Source of the DNA: Chthoniobacterales bacterium
GTDB taxonomy: Bacteria > Verrucomicrobiota > Verrucomicrobiia > Chthoniobacterales > JACTMZ01
DNA: 64,000 nucleotides
Direction: 5' to 3'
Assembly: GCA_018402585.1 (NCBI GenBank)
Contig: JAGYIO010000003.1
Location: 266,386-330,385, forward strand
Both the position numbers and the translations under genes were made by a program. Positions 1 to 44,048 of the stretch are shown here, piece after piece. Numbering within the stretch: position 1 is the first letter of the stretch; every line of letters starts with the position of its first letter. Under the pieces are notes generated by a model that saw only the letters and a list, made by a program, of their open reading frames with translations, was not told the DNA's origin and ran no database searches.

Positions 1-375
1 GAGCAGCACGGCGAAGACCACTTCCGCACGCTCGAAACCAAAGTCCTGCAAAGTCTGGTCGGCCGCATCGGCCTGATCGTCGCCACCGGCGGCGGGGTTA
101 TCGTCACGGAGGAAAACCGTAAACTTCTCCCGCAGATCGGCCCCGTGGTCTGGCTCGACGCCAGCCCGGAACAACTCTACCAGCGGGTCAAACAGAGCAA
201 ACGCCCGCTCCTCCAGACCGCCGACCCCCGCCGCACCGTCGAGGAACTCTACCGCCAGCGCGAACCCTTCTATCGCGAGGCCGCCACCGTCCGTCTCGAT
301 TCCGGCACCCTGACCCACCGCCAAACCGCCGAAGCCATCCTCAACGCCTTGCAACAAGAGCAGGCCCAGCAATAA
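1..375 (+). CDS. aroK: Shikimate kinase, C-terminal part (5' end outside the window)
   Basis: Frame 1 is open from the first base to a TAA at 373-375, giving about 124 residues. It carries the glycine-rich VATGGGVI segment of shikimate kinase, the RPLL lid motif, and the REPFYREAA helix that follows the lid. The family phosphorylates shikimate with ATP in chorismate synthesis in the cytosol. The N-terminal P-loop lies upstream of the window, so only the C-terminal two thirds can be checked. The gene ends 54 bp before tRNA-Gln. Gluconate kinases share the fold, but the GGG and RPLL motifs favour AroK. Confidence 0.8.
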   Translation, partial: EQHGEDHFRTLETKVLQSLVGRIGLIVATGGGVIVTEENRKLLPQIGPVVWLDASPEQLYQRVKQSKRPLLQTADPRRTVEELYRQREPFYREAATVRLDSGTLTHRQTAEAILNALQQEQAQQ

Positions 376-429
376 AATGCTCCAAGCTTGAAAACCCCCG
401 CCCCGCGCCTATAGTCACATTTCAATTAT

Positions 430-503
430 TGCCTCGTGGTGTAACGGTAGCACTGCAGATTCTGGATCTGTGTGTCATGGTTCGAATCCATGCGAGGCAG
501 CCA
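430..503 (+). tRNA. tRNA-Gln (anticodon CUG)
   Basis: A 74-nt cloverleaf can be drawn by hand. The 7-bp acceptor stem pairs TGCCTCG with CGAGGCA. The D-arm contains GGTGTAACGGTAGCAC. The anticodon stem GCAGA/TCTGT encloses loop TTCTGGA with anticodon CTG. The T-arm holds GGTTCGAATCC. The discriminator is G and an encoded CCA ends at 503. A U1-A72 first pair and G73 are typical of bacterial tRNA-Gln. The last 19 bases (485-503) are also the first 19 bases of the tandem repeat that follows, so the tRNA 3' end is the first element of the array. Confidence 0.92.
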
Positions 504-1105
504 TGCGAAGCATGGCGAACTCAAGTCCCCGCCACGCGCAGCAACCCTCGGAAAGGTCGCCCTCGCGACCAATCCATGCGAGGCAGCCATGCGAAGCATG
601 GCGAACTCAAGTCCCCGCCACGCGCAGCAACCCTCGGAAAGGTCGCCCTCGCGACCAATCCATGCGAGGCAGCCATGCGAAGCATGGCGAACTCAAGTCC
701 CCGCCACGCGCAGCAACCCTCGGAAAGGTCGCCCTCGCGACCAATCCATGCGAGGCAGCCATGCGAAGCATGGCGAACTCAAGTCCCCGCCACGCGCAGC
801 CACCCTCGGAAAGGTCGCCCCGGCGACCAATCCATGCGAGGCAGCCATGCGAAGCATGGCGAACTCAAGTCCCCGCCACGCGCAGCCACCCTCGGAAAGG
901 TCGCCCCGGCGACCAATCCATGCGAGGCAGCCATGCGAAGCATGGCGAACTCAAGTCCCCGCCACGCGCAGCCACCCTCGGAAAGGTCGCCCCGGCGACC
1001 AATCCATGCGAGGCAGCCATGCGAAGCATGGCGAACTCGTGTCTCCGATAAACGAAGTCATCCCCGCAAAGACCGCCACAGGCGATCAATCCATGCGGGG
1101 CAGCC
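485..1105 (+). repeat. Seven 86-bp tandem repeats derived from the tRNA-Gln 3' end
   Basis: Units start at 485, 571, 657, 743, 829, 915 and 1001, a constant 86-bp period, with a degenerate partial eighth unit at 1088. Each begins with the 3' strand of the tRNA T-arm and acceptor (AATCCATGCGAGGCAGCCA). Two perfect hairpins follow: GCCATGC-GAA-GCATGGC, and GGTCGC-CCTC-GCGACC (or CCCG in the loop). Units 1-3 look identical to one another. Units 4-6 form a second identical block with two small changes (cagcA to cagcC and the loop change). Unit 7 is diverged. Such block homogeneity suggests recent amplification or gene conversion. No spacers occur, so it is not a CRISPR array. Open frames across it are products of the repeat. 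Confidence 0.95.
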
Positions 1106-1208
1106 AAACTTAAAGACCCCCTCCGCATGTGCGCTGACCGTGCGACTTTTGCCCTCATCATCATTGGTAGTGACCTTGCCAACCTGGCAGGCGTCGCACG
1201 AAAGAGCT

Positions 1209-3359
1209 CTACTTGAGGATAATCTTATCATTGTCCGCCAAAACATAATCGTTGCCGTCTGCAACCAGTCTAAATTCCGCATAAGCAAAAGTTGCTGCTG
1301 GAGACAAGCCACGGATCATATCACTTAACTCAATCACTTCCATGCCCGCACCGATCGTGGTTTGACCAGGTAATGATTGCAACTTTAATCCAAAGGTATC
1401 ATAAAGATTCACCTCATATAAGACTTCGAGGTCGACGTCGGTTGAGCCCGTCCGAAAAATCGCAATGTGGCTGCCGACCTTTTCGCTGCTGACCTCAACC
1501 AGTTCAAAAGTACTGTCCTTGGCGGCTTTAATGCGGACCGGATCAAGACCCAACATGTAGACATTCACGCCGTTGTACATGGAGAAGCTGGAAATATAGA
1601 AACTCCCATTGGTATCCCAGGAATCATAGCCAGTTATGAAGGCCTGTGAGCTCGCGACAGTATCCAGTTGGCTGAGCTTAGCCAGCTCGGTGGTGACACC
1701 CGATGCAATATCAAACTCCCAAATGGAATTGGGATAAGATACATCACTTACTCCGATATAAATTTTTTCGCCATCGGCCGACAATTGAAAAACCCAGGTT
1801 TTCGGCACGCCTTTACCAATGCCGCTAAAGTGGGGCCGTCCCACAAAACTCCACGAGGCAGTGGCATCGGTAAAGCGATAGACGTTGCCTTGGTCGTCAG
1901 CCGTATAGAGAATTTCGCCTGCTCGGTCCCACTGTCCAACTTCCATCGCGTTGGGGCCCTGCAGCGGGAAGTCTTGGAGTTCTCCAAAGCCAGTGGCGGG
2001 ATCATAGTACCAGACATGATTGAAGGTGCTGGCAGACTCGCCCTTATACCATTGAGGACGACTGGAGCCCCCTGTCATGTAGACTCGCCCACGCGAATCA
2101 ATCCACATAAAACGAGTACTGTAAAAGTAACCGGTCCAGGCACGCGGTTTACCCAAAAGCGTGGTCTCGGCCCGATCAATATTGTAGCGAACCAATTCAT
2201 TTGTCGGAATGGACATCCCGTAGAGTAAATTATTCGCCACGTCTTTTTGAATAGTCACTATCTGCAGGTTGGGCCAACCGACTCCAGCAGGCTCAGATAC
2301 GCTCAAGTCGAGCAATTCGTTGTCAAGCGGTTCGTATCCATACCAGTGAAATCCACGGGTGTTTAAATAATCGTTGTTCATGTTTGAGCTATCGAGTGTC
2401 GCGACGTAAACTCGACCGCCGTGAGCGATGGGGCGCGTATGAAACTTCTCGGCGCTTTCGCCCAGCGTCCAGTTGTTAACTTTGCGAGAGGCCGTCTCCG
2501 CATCACCAACCCAACGCAAAACTCCATCGGACTGATGGAGTCGATACAGCATCGAGTTGCTCACGTGGTCGTGTCCGGAAATATAGATGTCGCCATTGGG
2601 ATGCGATCCCACGGCCAACCAGCATTGATCGGGCCTGTCGCCGTTCGGTGCGTTGGGCAATTGCCAAACCCTGACCCCCTCAAGGTTCCCCTGTCGCATC
2701 TGATCGGTGGGAATAGGGATGGCCGAAGTGGTAACACTAAAGGAATCGCTGACGCTATCAATCGTTAGCACCGTGTCGATGGTCGTCGCCAGTTGCGCTG
2801 CCGCCATCTGCTGAAGCGTAATTACCTGTCCATTTGAAATTATGCCATCCGCATCGGTAAAGGCACGGCCGTCGATGGAATATTTTCCGTTCTCTATACT
2901 AATAATTGCGGTTCCACCAAGAACAGAGACCAAAATGGAGTCGGAGGTGACTAAAGAGTCCGGGGCAGCGCTGGTCAAACTAGCCAAACTAAATCCACCC
3001 GGCTCCACTCCCACCTTGCGCCTCTGGATCCGGTAGAATCGAACAGCGGAGAGCGGTGTCGAGTCTGTGAATTTAAGAGTGGCTCCATTGCCCACCAGCT
3101 CCTCTTGCAATGGAACCCAGCCGACGTCTAGCGACTCGGTGGTCTCAAGTTGGTACCAGTAACCCGGGAAGGAATTGACCGAGACGGTTGCGAGGCCATT
3201 GACCATACTGATATGGGCCACGAAGGGTGCAGCCGGATCAACGGTTGCCCCGAGGGTGGTCGTAGCACCTTCCCAGGAGACGCCCGTATCTTCACCGCCT
3301 CCATTGACCGCCGAGTTGGCCAGCGCCATGAAGGCCAGGATTAGTGACAGTTTTTTCAT
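1209..3359 (-). CDS. Secreted protein of unknown function, probably beta-propeller-like
   Basis: The product has 716 residues and a clear signal peptide (MKKLSLILAFMALANS). Residues of roughly 50-115 form a beta-rich segment ending FYRIQRR, of the kind often found before C-terminal domains in large secreted verrucomicrobial proteins. The middle, about 235-600, has recurring strand-turn blocks with GxVYxT- or GxIYIS-like cores (RVYVATLD, RVYMTGG, NVYRFTDA, KIYIGVSD), which suggests a propeller of WD, kelch or NHL type. I do not recognise the family. Base composition is visibly more AT-rich than the neighbours. Its ATG overlaps the upstream ORF stop as TAATG, so the two are probably translated together. 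It lies between the tRNA-Gln array and a second tRNA-3'-end copy. Confidence 0.7.
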   Translation of the reverse strand: MKKLSLILAFMALANSAVNGGGEDTGVSWEGATTTLGATVDPAAPFVAHISMVNGLATVSVNSFPGYWYQLETTESLDVGWVPLQEELVGNGATLKFTDSTPLSAVRFYRIQRRKVGVEPGGFSLASLTSAAPDSLVTSDSILVSVLGGTAIISIENGKYSIDGRAFTDADGIISNGQVITLQQMAAAQLATTIDTVLTIDSVSDSFSVTTSAIPIPTDQMRQGNLEGVRVWQLPNAPNGDRPDQCWLAVGSHPNGDIYISGHDHVSNSMLYRLHQSDGVLRWVGDAETASRKVNNWTLGESAEKFHTRPIAHGGRVYVATLDSSNMNNDYLNTRGFHWYGYEPLDNELLDLSVSEPAGVGWPNLQIVTIQKDVANNLLYGMSIPTNELVRYNIDRAETTLLGKPRAWTGYFYSTRFMWIDSRGRVYMTGGSSRPQWYKGESASTFNHVWYYDPATGFGELQDFPLQGPNAMEVGQWDRAGEILYTADDQGNVYRFTDATASWSFVGRPHFSGIGKGVPKTWVFQLSADGEKIYIGVSDVSYPNSIWEFDIASGVTTELAKLSQLDTVASSQAFITGYDSWDTNGSFYISSFSMYNGVNVYMLGLDPVRIKAAKDSTFELVEVSSEKVGSHIAIFRTGSTDVDLEVLYEVNLYDTFGLKLQSLPGQTTIGAGMEVIELSDMIRGLSPAATFAYAEFRLVADGNDYVLADNDKIILK

Positions 3360-3835: not shown

Positions 3836-3888
3836 CCGAATGTGGCAAGAAGCAAGTTTTTCGGTCTATGTCTCGTGGTTCGGCTCCC

Positions 3889-3922
3889 TGCGAGGCAGCC
3901 ATCCACAGGATGGCGAACTCAA
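3889..3922 (+). repeat. Decayed second copy of the tRNA-Gln 3' end plus hairpin
   Basis: The sequence TGCGAGGCAGCCAT is followed by hairpin GCCATCC-ACA-GGATGGC (3898-3914) and then GAACTCAA. This matches the start of the 86-bp repeat unit (485-525). The hairpin arms differ from the array version (GCCATGC-GAA-GCATGGC) by a paired, compensatory change. The T-arm just upstream (3874-3888) is only partly preserved. With the array at 485-1105 it brackets the 1.1-3.9 kb segment as direct repeats would bracket an integrated island. Confidence 0.75.
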
Positions 3923-4030: not shown

Positions 4031-4095
4031 TGCCACCTTCTCCACACCAAGGCCACGCACAAAGGCGCGCCCCCCACACGCTGCTTCCCCCCCAA

Positions 4096-4151
4096 GGGGC
4101 ATGGGCGTCCCGCCCGTCACGACCAGTCACCACGGCCGGAACGGCCGTGCC
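4096..4151 (+). repeat. Solitary palindromic repeat related to the MITE core
   Basis: Two hairpins stand side by side: GGGCG-TCC-CGCCC (4103-4115) and CACGGCC-GGAAC-GGCCGTG (4131-4149). Outer GGGGC and GCC edges can also pair. The same arrangement, almost base for base, forms the centre of the three 221-bp MITEs at 22.6, 41.0 and 43.9 kb, but here the MITE ends are absent. It is a dispersed intergenic palindrome. The rest of 3836-4231 holds only the tRNA relic and the riboswitch-like element. Confidence 0.75.
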
Positions 4152-4231
4152 TCCTCTACGTCAACAGCACGACTCCGCCCCAAAAAAAGTCACCCCGTCT
4201 CCCTGAAATAAACCAATCACACCCCCTCTGC

Positions 4232-4864
4232 TCAATCTTCTCCCCCAACCAACACACCCTGCAGCGCCGGCCACATCGTCGCGGCAATCTGCTGCTGCCC
4301 CTCAGCCGTAGGGTGGATCAAATCCGCTTGGTTCATCCCCGGATCACCCGCCACCCCCTCGAGCAAAAAGGGCAACAACACCGCGCCATGCGCTTGCGCC
4401 ACCTTGCCGAAGACCGCGGCAAAGGACTCCGCGTAATCCCGACCCATACTGCCCGGCATCTGCATGCCGGCCACCATGATTTTCACTTGCGGATTCGCCG
4501 CACGCGCCTTGGCCATGATCGCCGCCAGGTTTTCCTCCACTTGCTCGACCGGTAAACCGCGCAAGCCGTCGTTACCGCCCAAGGCAAGGACCATCACCTC
4601 CGCCGCCCCCTCGCCCAGCAGCCAATCGACCCGCCGCAGTCCCCCCGCCGTGGTATCCCCACTCAGGCCGGCATTGACCACGGAGTAATTGAGCCCCGCA
4701 GCCTTGATTTTCTCCTGCAGCAACGCAGGGTAAGCCTCTTCCGGTTCCAGATTGTAGCCGGCCGTGATGCTGTCACCGAGAATGACCACCCGGCCCGGTT
4801 CGCCGGCCACCGCCGCCGCCCCGACAACCGCACCGAACCACAAAGCGTAAAGACTTCCGCGCAT
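4232..4864 (-). CDS. tesA: SGNH/GDSL esterase, TesA-type
   Basis: The product has 210 residues from ATG 4864. That start gives a short signal sequence (MRGSLYALWFGAVVGAAAVA), while the much longer open frame upstream is only the antisense of ybbA. SGNH blocks are present in order: GDSITAGY (catalytic Ser), then GLSGDTT, then GGND, and near the C-terminus DLIHPTAEG (catalytic Asp and His). TesA is a periplasmic lysophospholipase/thioesterase/arylesterase. Divergent ybbA and ybbP begin next to it, the same neighbourhood as in Escherichia coli (tesA-ybbA-ybbP), which supports the assignment. Confidence 0.87.
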   Translation of the reverse strand: MRGSLYALWFGAVVGAAAVAGEPGRVVILGDSITAGYNLEPEEAYPALLQEKIKAAGLNYSVVNAGLSGDTTAGGLRRVDWLLGEGAAEVMVLALGGNDGLRGLPVEQVEENLAAIMAKARAANPQVKIMVAGMQMPGSMGRDYAESFAAVFGKVAQAHGAVLLPFLLEGVAGDPGMNQADLIHPTAEGQQQIAATMWPALQGVLVGGED

Positions 4865-4909
4865 ATGATCCTCCAGCAAACCACGGAACCGGCTCCGGCC
4901 AAGAGCGAA

Positions 4910-8146: not shown

Positions 8147-9316
8147 ATGAATATCCCCACGCAATGTCCTTTCAGCGGACGGCGCCTCCCGGCCGACCAC
8201 TCCCCCTTGCTGGCCGACGAGGCCGGCCTGCCCGCCGATCCGGTCGAAGCTGCGCACGCGTTCCTCGACCAGTTTGCCCAGGAAAACAAGATCGCACCGG
8301 ACCCCGCCCGCCGCGAGCAAGTGGCCGCGGAAATTCGCCGCCACGGGTTCTATGCGCAAACCCCCGCCGAACTCGCTGCTGCCTGCCGCCTTGCCTGGCG
8401 CAACAACCGCCGCTGCATCGGCCGACGCTTCTGGGAATCCCTCGAAGTGGTCGACGCACGGGATATCACCACGGCCGGAGGAATTTTCGAGGCCTGCCTG
8501 GCCCACCTCCGCCGCTCGACCAATGGCGGACGGATCCAACCCCTCATCACCGTCTTCGCCCCATCGGGTCCGGACGCCCCCGGCCCGCGGATCCACAACT
8601 ACCAACTCATCCGCTACGCCGGCTACCGCGCGGCCGACGGCACCGTGCTCGGCGATCCCGCCGAGACCAACTTCACCGCACGCCTCATCGAGGCCGGGTG
8701 GACCCCGCCGCAAACCCGCTCCGCCTTCGATCTTCTCCCGCTCCTCATCGAAGTCCCCGGGGAAAAGCCCCGCTTCTTCCCCGTGCCGCGGGATGCCGTC
8801 CTTGAGGTTCCCCTCACCCACCCGACCCTGCCCTGGTTCGCCGATCTCCGCCTGCAGTGGCACGCACTTCCGGCCGTGAGCAACCTGACCCTCATGACCG
8901 GCGGTGTCCGTTACACCGCGGCACCCTTCAGCGGTTACTACATGGTCACCGAGATCGCGGCGCGCAATTTCGGCGACCCGCATCGCTACAACTTGCTCCC
9001 CGTCGTGGCCGATCGCCTCGACCCGCAACTCCGCTCGCATGACCCACTCTGGCGCGACCGCGCCTTGGTCGAAATCACCGCCGCCGTGCTTCACTCCTTT
9101 CGCCGCGCCGGCGTCACCATGGTCGACCACCACACGGCCTCACGCCAATTCGTCGACCACCTCGAAAACGAAAAAGCCGCCGGCCGACCCGTGCCCGGCG
9201 ACTGGGCTTGGCTCGTGCCGCCCATCTCCGGCTCGGCCAGCCCCGTCTTCCACCGCGCGTACGATCCGCGCCGCCGCTTGCCGGATTTTGTCTCGGAACC
9301 ACGGAAAAATGAATAG
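8147..9316 (+). CDS. nos: Bacterial nitric oxide synthase, oxygenase domain only
   Basis: The product has 389 residues from ATG 8147, 1 bp after ybbP. The heme-thiolate motif WRNNRRCIGR places the ligand Cys at residue 90. Further NOS blocks follow: RIHNYQLIRYAGY, YTAAPFSGYYMVTEIAARNF with the conserved substrate Glu, RYNLLPVVA, DRALVEITAAVLHSF, VTMVDHHTASRQF and GDWAWLVPP. The usual GWYM reads GYYM, and TEIG reads TEIA. No reductase domain is present, as in Bacillus and Deinococcus NOS, so electrons must come from a separate reductase. The expected reaction is L-arginine to citrulline plus NO, using tetrahydrobiopterin or tetrahydrofolate. The close spacing implies transcription with ybbAP. 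Confidence 0.94.
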   Translation: MNIPTQCPFSGRRLPADHSPLLADEAGLPADPVEAAHAFLDQFAQENKIAPDPARREQVAAEIRRHGFYAQTPAELAAACRLAWRNNRRCIGRRFWESLEVVDARDITTAGGIFEACLAHLRRSTNGGRIQPLITVFAPSGPDAPGPRIHNYQLIRYAGYRAADGTVLGDPAETNFTARLIEAGWTPPQTRSAFDLLPLLIEVPGEKPRFFPVPRDAVLEVPLTHPTLPWFADLRLQWHALPAVSNLTLMTGGVRYTAAPFSGYYMVTEIAARNFGDPHRYNLLPVVADRLDPQLRSHDPLWRDRALVEITAAVLHSFRRAGVTMVDHHTASRQFVDHLENEKAAGRPVPGDWAWLVPPISGSASPVFHRAYDPRRRLPDFVSEPRKNE

Positions 9317-22205: not shown

Positions 22206-22624
22206 TGCTAAGTCTGAACGACTGGGAGGGTCCCGGCAGACGCATAAAGTTGACCGGACTCGTCGCCGGGGCCTTGGCGGCACACTCCGCGGCGAGGTCC
22301 ATCGCCTCCACCCAGGAGACGACTGCCAAGGCTGGAGCCCGCGCCAGAACGCAAACTATCAAAATCAAGGCGCCTCCTCGTTCAGGAAGGTGGCAGGCGG
22401 GCCAGCGAAAGGTTCGAGCGAGCCATGGAGAGGACCGCTTGGGCCCTCTTGCTTGAAGATGGAGCCAATAAGGACCTGTCGCCGTAGGTCTCACAGACCA
22501 TCCCCAGGATTAAGTTTGCCCAGCCATTCCCAACTCGGATCCGGGTCACCGCTCAACCTGCAGTGACGCTGCGGCCGTCTGCCAGGGAAGTAAATAAGCC
22601 GATTATCGGCTCGGCTTTGACCTA
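22206..22624. other. Non-coding stretch, no gene recognised
   Basis: About 420 bp between the fasciclin start and the first MITE. It probably carries the fasciclin promoter on the minus strand. A leftward ORF runs through it with a hydrophobic segment (GALILIVCVLARAPALAVV), but it continues into the fasciclin start in another frame and has no convincing start signal. I see no RNA gene here. Confidence 0.5.
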
Positions 22625-22845
22625 AGCCGTGTCCATGCAAAACATTCTGCCATTTCTGGCACGGCAACAGAGTCGCGTCTGGGCGAGAGTTGACTAACTA
22701 TTTGGTGAGCGAGGTGGCACGTCGCCAAGGGGGCACGGGCGTCCCGCCCGTCACGACCCGACAACACGGCCGGGACGGCCGTGCCCCCTGGACAAACCGA
22801 ACCAAGCCGCGCTTTTATTGCGTCTTCAATTGCCTCGTTCAGGCT
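22625..22845 (+). mobile_element. MITE copy 1 (221 bp)
   Basis: A 221-bp element whose left end reads AGCCGTGTCCATGCAA. Copies of the same length lie at 40993 and, inverted, at 43828. The centre carries the double hairpin ACGGGCG-TCC-CGCCCGT and ACGGCC-GGGAC-GGCCGT. The right end here is diverged (CCTCGTTCAGGCT instead of CATGGTTACGGCT). It contains no ORF of its own. The element abuts, and ends inside, the stop codon of the next leftward gene. Confidence 0.88.
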
Positions 22846-23365
22846 AAGCCGCTTGGTGTTTGACCAATTCTAACACTTTTTTTTGATCCCCCCGCGCTGC
22901 CCAGATCATGCGCAAAAAGTCGGCCAGATGAATGCGGTGGGCTTTCAGAAAATTCCGATCTCCACCGCAGCCGTACATAATGTCGCGACAGAGCCTTCCG
23001 CCGAGAAAACACTCTGCTTTCTGCGTGATACGTGGCAGCCATTCAATACCTTCAACCGCTTCAGTTTTGGGGGGAAGTTCGGAGGAATCGAGCATTTCTT
23101 GTGACCACTCTCCATTTTGCTCGTGGAGAAAGTAGTCGCGGCGCGCAGCAGCGACGAGAAGGAATGTCTCCCAATCCGGTTCGCCGCGATTCACGTAATC
23201 TTCAATGTAGTCGAAAACATTAATCGGCTTCAGGCCGATAGTCGCGAGCGCACTTTTTTCGTCGGGGGAAAAACATTGTTCTGGATCCCGCGTGCCCTCA
23301 CCAAACCGCAAAGTTGCAGCGTCGTAAATGTCTTTGAGTTCCTTTTGCCAACTATATCGAGTCAT
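22844..23365 (-). CDS. Hypothetical cytoplasmic protein, C-terminus altered by a MITE
   Basis: The 173 residues have no signal peptide. The C-terminal half is the most protein-like and probably conserved: FLGGRLCRDIMYGCGGDRNF, then HLADFLRMIWAARGDQKKVLELVKH. The first half is acidic and helical (WQKELKDIYDAATLRFGEG). I do not recognise the family. The TAG stop uses two bases of the MITE end and one base of flank, so the insertion set the present stop and the original C-terminus may have been longer. It neighbours toxin-antitoxin relics, consistent with an accessory region. Confidence 0.65.
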   Translation of the reverse strand: MTRYSWQKELKDIYDAATLRFGEGTRDPEQCFSPDEKSALATIGLKPINVFDYIEDYVNRGEPDWETFLLVAAARRDYFLHEQNGEWSQEMLDSSELPPKTEAVEGIEWLPRITQKAECFLGGRLCRDIMYGCGGDRNFLKAHRIHLADFLRMIWAARGDQKKVLELVKHQAA

Positions 23366-40880: not shown

Positions 40881-40992
40881 GGATCACATCCCCTGCGGCG
40901 GCTCTTGCCACCCCTTCTCTGCACAACATTGACCAACCCCTCAACAACATTACCAACAACTCACGGCAGCTCTTACCCATGTCTTGAACCTA

Positions 40993-41213
40993 AGCCGTAA
41001 CCATGCAAAACATTCTGCCATTTCTGGCACGGCAACAGAGTCGCGTCTGGGCGAGAGTTGACTAACTATTTGGTGAGCGAGGTGGCACGTCGCCAAGGGG
41101 GCACGGGCGTCCCGCCCGTCACGACCCGACAACACGGCCGGGACGGCCGTGCCCCCTGGGCAAACCGAACCAAGCCGCGCTTTTATTGCGTCTTCAATTG
41201 CATGGTTACGGCT
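40993..41213 (+). mobile_element. MITE copy 2 (221 bp)
   Basis: This is the best-preserved copy. The left end AGCCGTAACCATGCAA and right end TTGCATGGTTACGGCT are perfect 16-bp inverted repeats. The interior includes CATTCTGCCATTTCTGGCAC and the two GC-rich hairpins seen in the other copies. There is no ORF of its own. It lies between the two right ends of the IS481-family element, so it inserted after that element or was trapped by it. Confidence 0.9.
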
Positions 41214-41241
41214 AAGTGTTACCCATGTCCTGACCTACGCC

Positions 41242-43827: not shown

Positions 43828-44048
43828 AGCCGTAACCATGCAATTGAAGACGCAATAAAAGCGCGGCTTGGTTCGGTTTGTCCAGGGGGCACGGCCGTCC
43901 CGGCCGTGTTGTCGGGTCGTGACGGGCGGGACGCCCGTGCCCCCTTGGCGACGTGCCACCTCGCTCACCAAATAGTTAGTCAACTCTCGCCCAGACGCGA
44001 CTCTGTTGCCGTGCCAGAAATGGCAGAATGTTTTGCCTGGTTACGGCT
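43828..44048 (-). mobile_element. MITE copy 3 (221 bp, inverted)
   Basis: It has the same length and structure as the copies at 22625 and 40993 but the opposite orientation. The end at 43828 is intact (AGCCGTAACCATGCAA). The end at 44048 is slightly diverged (GCCTGGTTACGGCT). The GC-rich double hairpin lies in the middle. It sits 14 bp from the right end of the IS630 element. Confidence 0.9.

Follow-up and report, generated by a model that had tools for sequence, protein, structure and literature searches.

A tandem array of short tRNA-linked repeats behind a tRNA-Gln gene of a Chthoniobacterales bacterium

Introduction

What are the seven repeated units that stand directly behind a tRNA-Gln gene in a Chthoniobacterales bacterium, and why does each of them carry the 3' end of that tRNA? 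We address this question in a stretch of 64,000 nucleotides, termed here the window (GenBank assembly GCA_018402585.1, contig JAGYIO010000003.1, positions 266,386 to 330,385 of the forward strand), together with the rest of the genome, other members of its genus and more distant relatives. The arrangement recalls the tRNA-linked repeats (TLRs) of Escherichia coli. According to PMC8144298, these were first described in 1978; strain K-12 has 22 of them at ten loci, with one to five per locus, and 18-19 bp of their 3' end are identical to the 3' end of the upstream gene. An earlier reading of the window from its letters, the original prediction below, held that no described element has this exact design: this was mistaken, since the E. 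coli TLRs, which Rfam models as RtT, share it.

Anatomy of the array

The array lies directly 3' of tRNA-Gln and on the same strand, and its units follow a single order: hairpin 1 just past the tRNA tail, then a linker, hairpin 2 and, once more, nucleotides 58-76 of tRNA-Gln (Table 1). Tandem Repeats Finder, run on the window, gives a period of 86 with 6.4 copies, 99% matches and a score of 1045 over 485-1038; comparison unit by unit resolves 485-1087 into seven units of 86 or 87 bp, beyond which an eighth copy of the tail extends to 1106. Unit 1 opens with the 3'-terminal 19 bases of the tRNA itself, and among the 19-nt copies past the tRNA six are identical and the seventh has one change. 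Units 1-3 and units 4-6 form two blocks of identical sequence set apart by 3 differences, and unit 7 has 21 differences in its first 86 positions. Both methods bear out the predicted tandem array, and the unit-by-unit comparison its seven units, each seeded by the tRNA-Gln 3' end, and its two identical blocks; the predicted unit length of 86 bp is right for units 1-6 and wrong for the diverged unit 7, and the predicted span of 485-1105 is right at its start and wrong at its end.

Two perfect hairpins had been ascribed to every unit. The first (GCCATGC GAA GCATGGC) has a 7-bp stem that is free of mismatches in each of the seven units; the 6-bp stem of the second (GGTCGC CCTC GCGACC) is equally perfect in units 1-6, and in unit 7 it has one C-A mismatch. 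The change of TC to CG in units 4-6 leaves the stem paired, as had been predicted. Folded alone, a single unit shows a modest gain in stability against shuffles (z -2.1 for unit 1, -1.2 for unit 4). Between 340 and 1300 no terminator-like site was found on the + strand, the single one being on the - strand.

Table 1. Features of the tRNA-Gln locus, in window coordinates.
Feature	Position	Strand	Remarks
Sigma-70-like promoter match (TTGAAA-16-TATAGT) before the tRNA	388-415	+	Consensus match only
Second, weaker promoter-like match before the tRNA	349-378		Consensus match only
tRNA-Gln(CTG), intact, CCA encoded	430-503	+	ARAGORN; ordinary Rfam tRNA, 58.9 bits
tRNA tail (A58 to CCA)	485-503	+	Copy one of eight; opens unit 1
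Unit 1, 86 bp	485-570	+	Hairpin 1 500-516; hairpin 2 555-570
GGA of unit 1	550-552	+	Can pair with TCC 573-575 in the next tail
Unit 2	571-656	+	Sequence of unit 1
Unit 3	657-742	+	Sequence of unit 1
Unit 4	743-828	+	3 changes against unit 1
Unit 5	829-914	+	Sequence of unit 4
Unit 6	915-1000	+	Sequence of unit 4
Unit 7, diverged, 87 bp	1001-1087	+	Hairpin 1 intact; hairpin 2 1071-1087, one C-A mismatch
Last tail copy, AATCCATGCGGGGCAGCCA	1088-1106	+	One change
Orphan eroded unit	3865-3922	+	Degenerate tRNA-Gln tail; intact hairpin 1 (GCCATCC ACA GGATGGC)

The orphan unit lies 2.8 kb downstream of the array and was matched by a covariance model (G000:C23:270268-270376, 42.9 bits, E 1.4e-8). 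An exact 29-base pattern had no match in the genome contigs collection.

A repetitive protein encoded by the array is extremely improbable. Forward frames are open over all or most of it, and in E. coli the gene tpr is located inside the small RNA RttR; these open frames, however, follow from a GC-rich, stop-poor unit, and the period of 86 is not a multiple of three and the unit lengths are 86, 87 and 90, so that no frame is kept, and we rejected this reading.

Other features were seen elsewhere in the window. A dispersed palindromic repeat, GGGGGCACGGGCGTCCCGCCCGTCACGACC..., occurs at 4091-4155, 22725-22789, 41093-41157 and 43881-43945, and two of its copies sit within a 234-bp direct repeat of 96% identity (22615-22848 and 40983-41216); a similar palindromic repeat is found near 1856-1934 of the sequence of the tRNA-Ser(GGA) locus of the same genome. 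The region 8150-9313 encodes a bacterial nitric oxide synthase oxygenase domain (PF02898, E 3.7e-137).

Pairing within and between units

We aligned nine different units with their following tails, from five genomes, which gives 16 pairs and 144 cells. The pairs are the 7 bp of hairpin 1, the 6 bp of hairpin 2 and the 3 bp of a GGA/TCC helix that joins a unit to the next tail; 97.9% of the cells are paired, against 20-43% in slid controls. Cells changed on both sides number 8 against 2.5 in shuffles, and none of 500 shuffles reaches 8; cruder measures give 3 pairs with a double change against 1.8 (38/500 shuffles reach this value) and 6 further pair types against 4.4 (23/500). Compensatory changes are present in both hairpins. 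As three pairs bear all 8 double changes and the sequences are related, the case that this comparison makes for selection on pairing is good without being overwhelming. A further candidate, an acceptor-like stem CCTCG/CGAGG from a unit to the next tail, seemed compensated in unit 7 and was rejected, 227 of 500 shuffles reaching the observed value.

Tests for pairing specific to the host tRNA reach significance over all hosts at two places. For the downstream hairpin against the tRNA acceptor strand, 22 units of 10 host types give p 0.006; the signal is strong for Asn, Glu and Ala(TGC), and none was found for tRNA-Gln. For the unit interior against the next tail, 55 units of 12 host types give p 0.022, again with no signal for tRNA-Gln. 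Terminal hairpins take 22 distinct forms, and by the same rule none is present in 29 of the 56 units examined, a set that includes a few chance tail matches. In the predicted fold of the tRNA with one unit, the 5' acceptor strand of the tRNA pairs with the second tail and not with the first, so that, on this one energy prediction, the tails may be interchangeable acceptor strands; in the fold of the tRNA with the whole array, the tRNA's own tail is kept.

The locus in congeners

The tRNA plus array was searched against 97 genomes, its own and 96 relatives, and among the matches listed those extending more than 10 bases beyond the tRNA came from the genus only. With up to 4 mismatches allowed, the 19-base tail copies that follow the tRNA number 7 in the genome of the window; 2 each in G002 and G007; 1 each in G006 and G009; and 1, with three mismatches, in G004. 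The locus thereby has one or two tail copies in five of ten congeners, the one in G004 being degenerate. Full units with both hairpins stand at the orthologous locus in four of them (G002, G006, G007 and G009) and hairpin 1 in two more, including G001, which has zero tail copies and retains hairpin 1. G003, G008 and G010 have no tail copy at the locus at this threshold, and G005 gave no match in the search. The DNA upstream of the tRNA is homologous to the window in G001, G002, G004, G006, G007 and G009; it is homologous too in G008 and G010, yet these have no array, so that presence of the array varies at an orthologous site. In G003 the match is confined to the tRNA itself.

In G002 and G006 the array joins directly to sequence matching window 4632-4908, in the GDSL hydrolase region, and in the window the orphan unit sits shortly before the GDSL hydrolase gene: together these suggest that the stretch from 1107 to about 3864 is a later arrival. 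Inside the apparently inserted stretch, between the array and the GDSL gene, an open reading frame of 716 aa (1209-3359) has no Pfam match.

The distribution bears on two further explanations. The first is that the array is a local slippage product free of selection, a conclusion that the original prediction tied in part to its absence from all close relatives; in fact some of these have it and others lack it. The identical blocks of units do point to recent amplification, and this part of the original prediction is supported both by them and by the range of 0 to 7 tail copies across the genus. The full units in four congeners and hairpin 1 in two more, however, together with the compensated stems and the related units behind other tRNAs (below), make slippage by itself quite improbable. 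The amplification may be neutral; the unit itself is not random sequence, and the tandem array is not a local oddity.

The second is that the units give rise to functional small RNAs, acting as a regulator or as a sponge or decoy for a tRNA-binding protein, with the array raising their dose. We regard this as possible, if doubtful. In its favour, compensatory change maintains both hairpins; the 22 distinct terminal hairpins hold 3 G-U and 1 A-C pairs, which hints weakly at a reading of the tRNA strand as RNA; and PMC8144298 reports in vitro binding of Hfq and CsrA by the E. coli TLRs RrA, RrB and RrF, which follow 5S rRNA. CsrA and Hfq, however, were each unmatched in all 11 genomes of the genus, six of which are at least 90% complete (the same searches on 14 control genomes, E. 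coli included, found CsrA in 3 and Hfq in 5). Moreover, G003, G008 and G010 do without a tail copy, which makes the units dispensable, and copy number ranges from 0 to 7.

Tail copies behind other tRNA genes

Independently of any model, we sought the 16 bases from position 58 of each tRNA in the 400 bases that follow it. The first base of the tail copies we take to be tRNA position 58, which lies in the T-loop at the junction TTCG/AATCC. In the genome of the window 7 of 43 tRNA genes have an exact tail copy: Ser GGA, GCT, TGA and CGA; Ala TGC; Gln CTG; and Tyr GTA. In the congener G007 the count is 8 of 42 at up to one mismatch, 6 of them exact (Ser CGA, TGA and GCT; Ala CGC; Glu TTC; Gln CTG) and the others, Asn and Tyr, with a single mismatch; a ninth copy, behind Ser GGA, has four mismatches and lies above this cut. 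Every host copy in the two genomes stops matching exactly 5' of base 58, the start thus being fixed after TTCG, and in a reversed-downstream control the best matches have 2 to 8 mismatches. Hosts also share a T-loop: in the genome of the window they are 7 of the 13 tRNAs with TTCGAATCC against 0 of the 30 others (Fisher p 5.3e-5), and in G007 8 of 15 against 0 of 27 at up to one mismatch (p 5.5e-5), or 6 of the 15 with exact copies alone (p 9.5e-4); these p values are a guide, as tRNA genes are not independent and both genomes come from one genus.

Two exceptions, both with another T-loop, were excluded from these counts. tRNA-Thr(CGT) of the genome of the window has a 3-mismatch copy extending 8 bases further 5'; tRNA-Lys(TTT) of G007 has at +295 an exact longer partial copy, which extends 16 bases further 5' and is possibly an integration scar. 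A looser cut of 4 mismatches adds single matches at Lys CTT of the former genome and Thr TGT of the latter, which we take for chance.

A second search was made with the pattern of hairpin 2 without the tail, AAAGRTCGCCNNNGGCGAYC. It gave 8 matches in 4 of the 11 genomes of the genus, against 0 for the pattern read backward, and none in the genome of the window, whose loops differ. All 8 belong to arrays whose host is tRNA-Gln, -Asn or -Ala, and after each come AATC and tail-like sequence, two tRNA-Ala tails having drifted from their host. This search and the model-free scan are the only ones free of bias as to the boundary: the covariance-model and core-pattern searches include AATCC or its partner, and boundary counts drawn from them are biased.

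The tails found on related units are those of six tRNAs: Gln, Asn, Ala, Tyr, Ser and Glu. In G007, one unit of the array behind tRNA-Ser(TGA) has the tail of tRNA-Asn, which it matches at 18 of 19 bases, and a tRNA-Asn array lies about 1 kb from this array on the same strand; the one change in this Asn tail recurs in a copy of the Asn array. Sequence comparison thus shows that a unit passed between arrays of different tRNAs, by a route that we infer. As a separate observation, at least four near-identical units of 98/99 bp stand behind tRNA-Ser(CGA) of the genome of the window (G000:C23:242400-243160).

Two explanations that invoke integration can be weighed against these tails. One, raised in the original prediction, is that the array is a stack of phage or island attachment sites left by an integrase that uses the tRNA 3' end. 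The stretch from T-loop to CCA is a typical integrase identity block, and the orphan tail 2.8 kb downstream would suit such an origin; the related units, however, bear the tails of six different tRNAs, each kind of tRNA its own, which one attachment site would not produce, and no integrase or transposase family was found among eight proteins checked in the first 13.4 kb of the window (three of them have no Pfam match). The proposal is unsupported and we consider it very improbable.

The other is a mobile non-coding element that inserts at TTCG/AATCC T-loops and duplicates nucleotides 58-76 as its target. This accords with the fixed boundary, the T-loop preference and the host-specific tails; with unit cores common to several tRNAs and the Asn-tailed unit in a Ser array; and with the recurrence of a boundary at 58 or 59 in E. 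coli and, at loci found by model, across the phylum (below). Against it, no enzyme was identified, the 8 pattern matches are all behind tRNAs, and plain recombination in the common AATCC would account for the spread without an enzyme. We therefore hold a mobile element to be rather unlikely.

Units resembling the RtT family

The Rfam RtT model (RF00391) gave no match to the array of the window up to E 10, and its gathering cut-off was not reached. Its best match in the same genome scores 37 bits (cut-off 45) and lies directly behind tRNA-Ser(GGA). The RtT-like unit seen behind that gene occupies G000:C31:20274-20367. Across the order, matches at E <= 0.001 occur in 11 of 213 genomes, one of them over the cut-off; at the loci read the hosts prove to be tRNA-Ser and tRNA-Glu, and the match over the cut-off lies on a contig that begins inside a tRNA. 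Of 387 genomes drawn evenly from the phylum, 8 have matches, one over the cut-off. These genome counts are lower bounds, as the draw of 387 missed the genome of the window, which two other RtT searches found. At the 11 phylum loci read (nine distinct tRNA genes) all copies start exactly at position 58, behind tRNAs with TTCGAATCC, in a search that favours AATCC.

A pattern for the core of longer units, GGGATGAGAACGNAGTTCGAGC, matched 22 stretches in the genome contigs collection, which by title belong to Verrucomicrobiota groups in 21 cases and to a Eubacteriales MAG in one; at 20 of 24 sites a tRNA (Ser, Ala or Arg) lies at most 260 bases upstream. The units of the Eubacteriales MAG look nearly identical to units behind tRNA-Arg in a Verrucomicrobiota MAG, and the isolate names are similar; the former MAG may be mis-binned. 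We did not find such repeats in Verrucomicrobiota described in titles or the starts of abstracts, a coverage that leaves most subscription journals aside.

A model for origin and spread

We think it likely that the feature is a tandem TLR array of structured non-coding units, cotranscribed with the tRNA, processed, and both amplified and spread by recombination, its products being by-product RNAs or the whole a tolerated repeat. Cotranscription with repeated tRNA-3'-like ends is the best reading by analogy: in E. coli K-12 the annotated 3' end of the sRNA RttR coincides exactly with the CCA that closes the first tail copy behind tyrV. The steps would be these: the units are transcribed from the tRNA promoter; the precursor is cut next to the CCA ends, as annotated for RttR; copy number shifts by unequal recombination or slippage between units; and spread between tRNA genes proceeds through recombination in the common AATCC. 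Whichever tail follows, the tRNA would regain a complete 3' end, so that changes in copy number would spare it and the array would do it no harm. What the units yield is most likely a set of by-product small RNAs, or else the repeat is a partly selfish one that the cell tolerates; CsrA- or Hfq-dependent regulators are not the expected products, nor would an essential role be expected.

In kind the array is ordinary, TLRs being known; what is new is the short variant, and its boundary rule makes an old question testable. Among the arrays counted, that of the window has the largest copy number. A sharp rule, with copies starting after TTCG behind hosts with TTCGAATCC, can be tested across thousands of genomes. 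The genus offers a natural experiment, as CsrA and Hfq were not found in it, seven tRNA genes of one genome are hosts and copy numbers vary among close relatives; it bears on how stable-RNA genes gain repeats and on the origin of tRNA-trailer small RNAs. A bolder proposal, which we advance as a speculation that is probably wrong, is that TLRs are ancient, phylum-crossing, tRNA-targeted non-coding elements, for which an active process inserts a unit at TTCG/AATCC and duplicates nucleotides 58-76 of the tRNA entered. If true, tRNA genes grow arrays of alternative 3' ends with their function kept, and 7 of 43 tRNA genes are so occupied here.

Comparison with known systems

REP/BIME palindromes are short repeated hairpins, as are those of the array, and REP elements are dispersed. 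A dispersed REP-like family was rejected here: the hairpin-1 pattern at up to 3 mismatches has 9 sites in the genome of the window, namely the seven of the array, the orphan and one 3-mismatch site, and all 8 matches of the hairpin-2 pattern in the genus are behind tRNAs.

Closer likenesses are found among stable-RNA operons. RrA, RrB and RrF of E. coli are of the TLR kind and are transcribed with, and processed from, their operon; their host is 5S rRNA, and the two proteins that they bind are ones which the genus of the array appears to lack (PMC8144298). The same source gives predicted CsrA scores below 0.01 for the other 19 E. coli TLRs, records the retraction of an early starvation phenotype and states that the TLRs of tRNA operons had no known function as of 2021 (PMC8144298). 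The 5S-linked TLRs are without a T-loop (PMC8144298), so that the T-loop rule is not universal. RNAs of the RtT family, adjoining tRNA genes, were detected by Northern blot in a Pasteurellaceae species, as reported in PMC4986893. Rfam RtT RNA has the same placement and the same tail as the array, and it has a GGGATGAGAAC...GTTCGAGC core that the array lacks.

The E. coli TLRs at tyrV are likewise tandem units directly behind a tRNA, each ending in its last 18-19 bases with CCA. Among 38 E. coli tRNA genes fetched, at loci picked by tRNA operon position and not at random, 9 (six tRNA-Lys and three tRNA-Arg) are followed by copies that begin at T-loop position 58 or 59, as in the array, and all 9 hosts have the T-loop TTCGAATCC, which 15 of the 38 possess; the copy reported behind 5S rRNA at rrnB was missed by a 19-base scan of E. 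coli. At about 178 bp, the tyr unit of E. coli has a long core, whereas the array has 86-bp units with two hairpins, in seven copies and in another phylum. Of the features that define TLRs, the array lies directly behind a tRNA on the same strand, has 3' end identity of 18-19 bp, and shares its genome with tail copies at several loci (7 of 43 tRNA genes), its seven units exceeding the five reported in E. coli; it is without the common core that E. coli TLRs have as in RtT, to which other units of the genome and genus give weak matches. Kinship with the E. coli TLRs would accordingly rest on design, on units of intermediate form within the genus and on the boundary common to both, the RtT model being without a match. 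Though not recognised by that model, the array belongs with the TLRs, as a short variant amplified in tandem.
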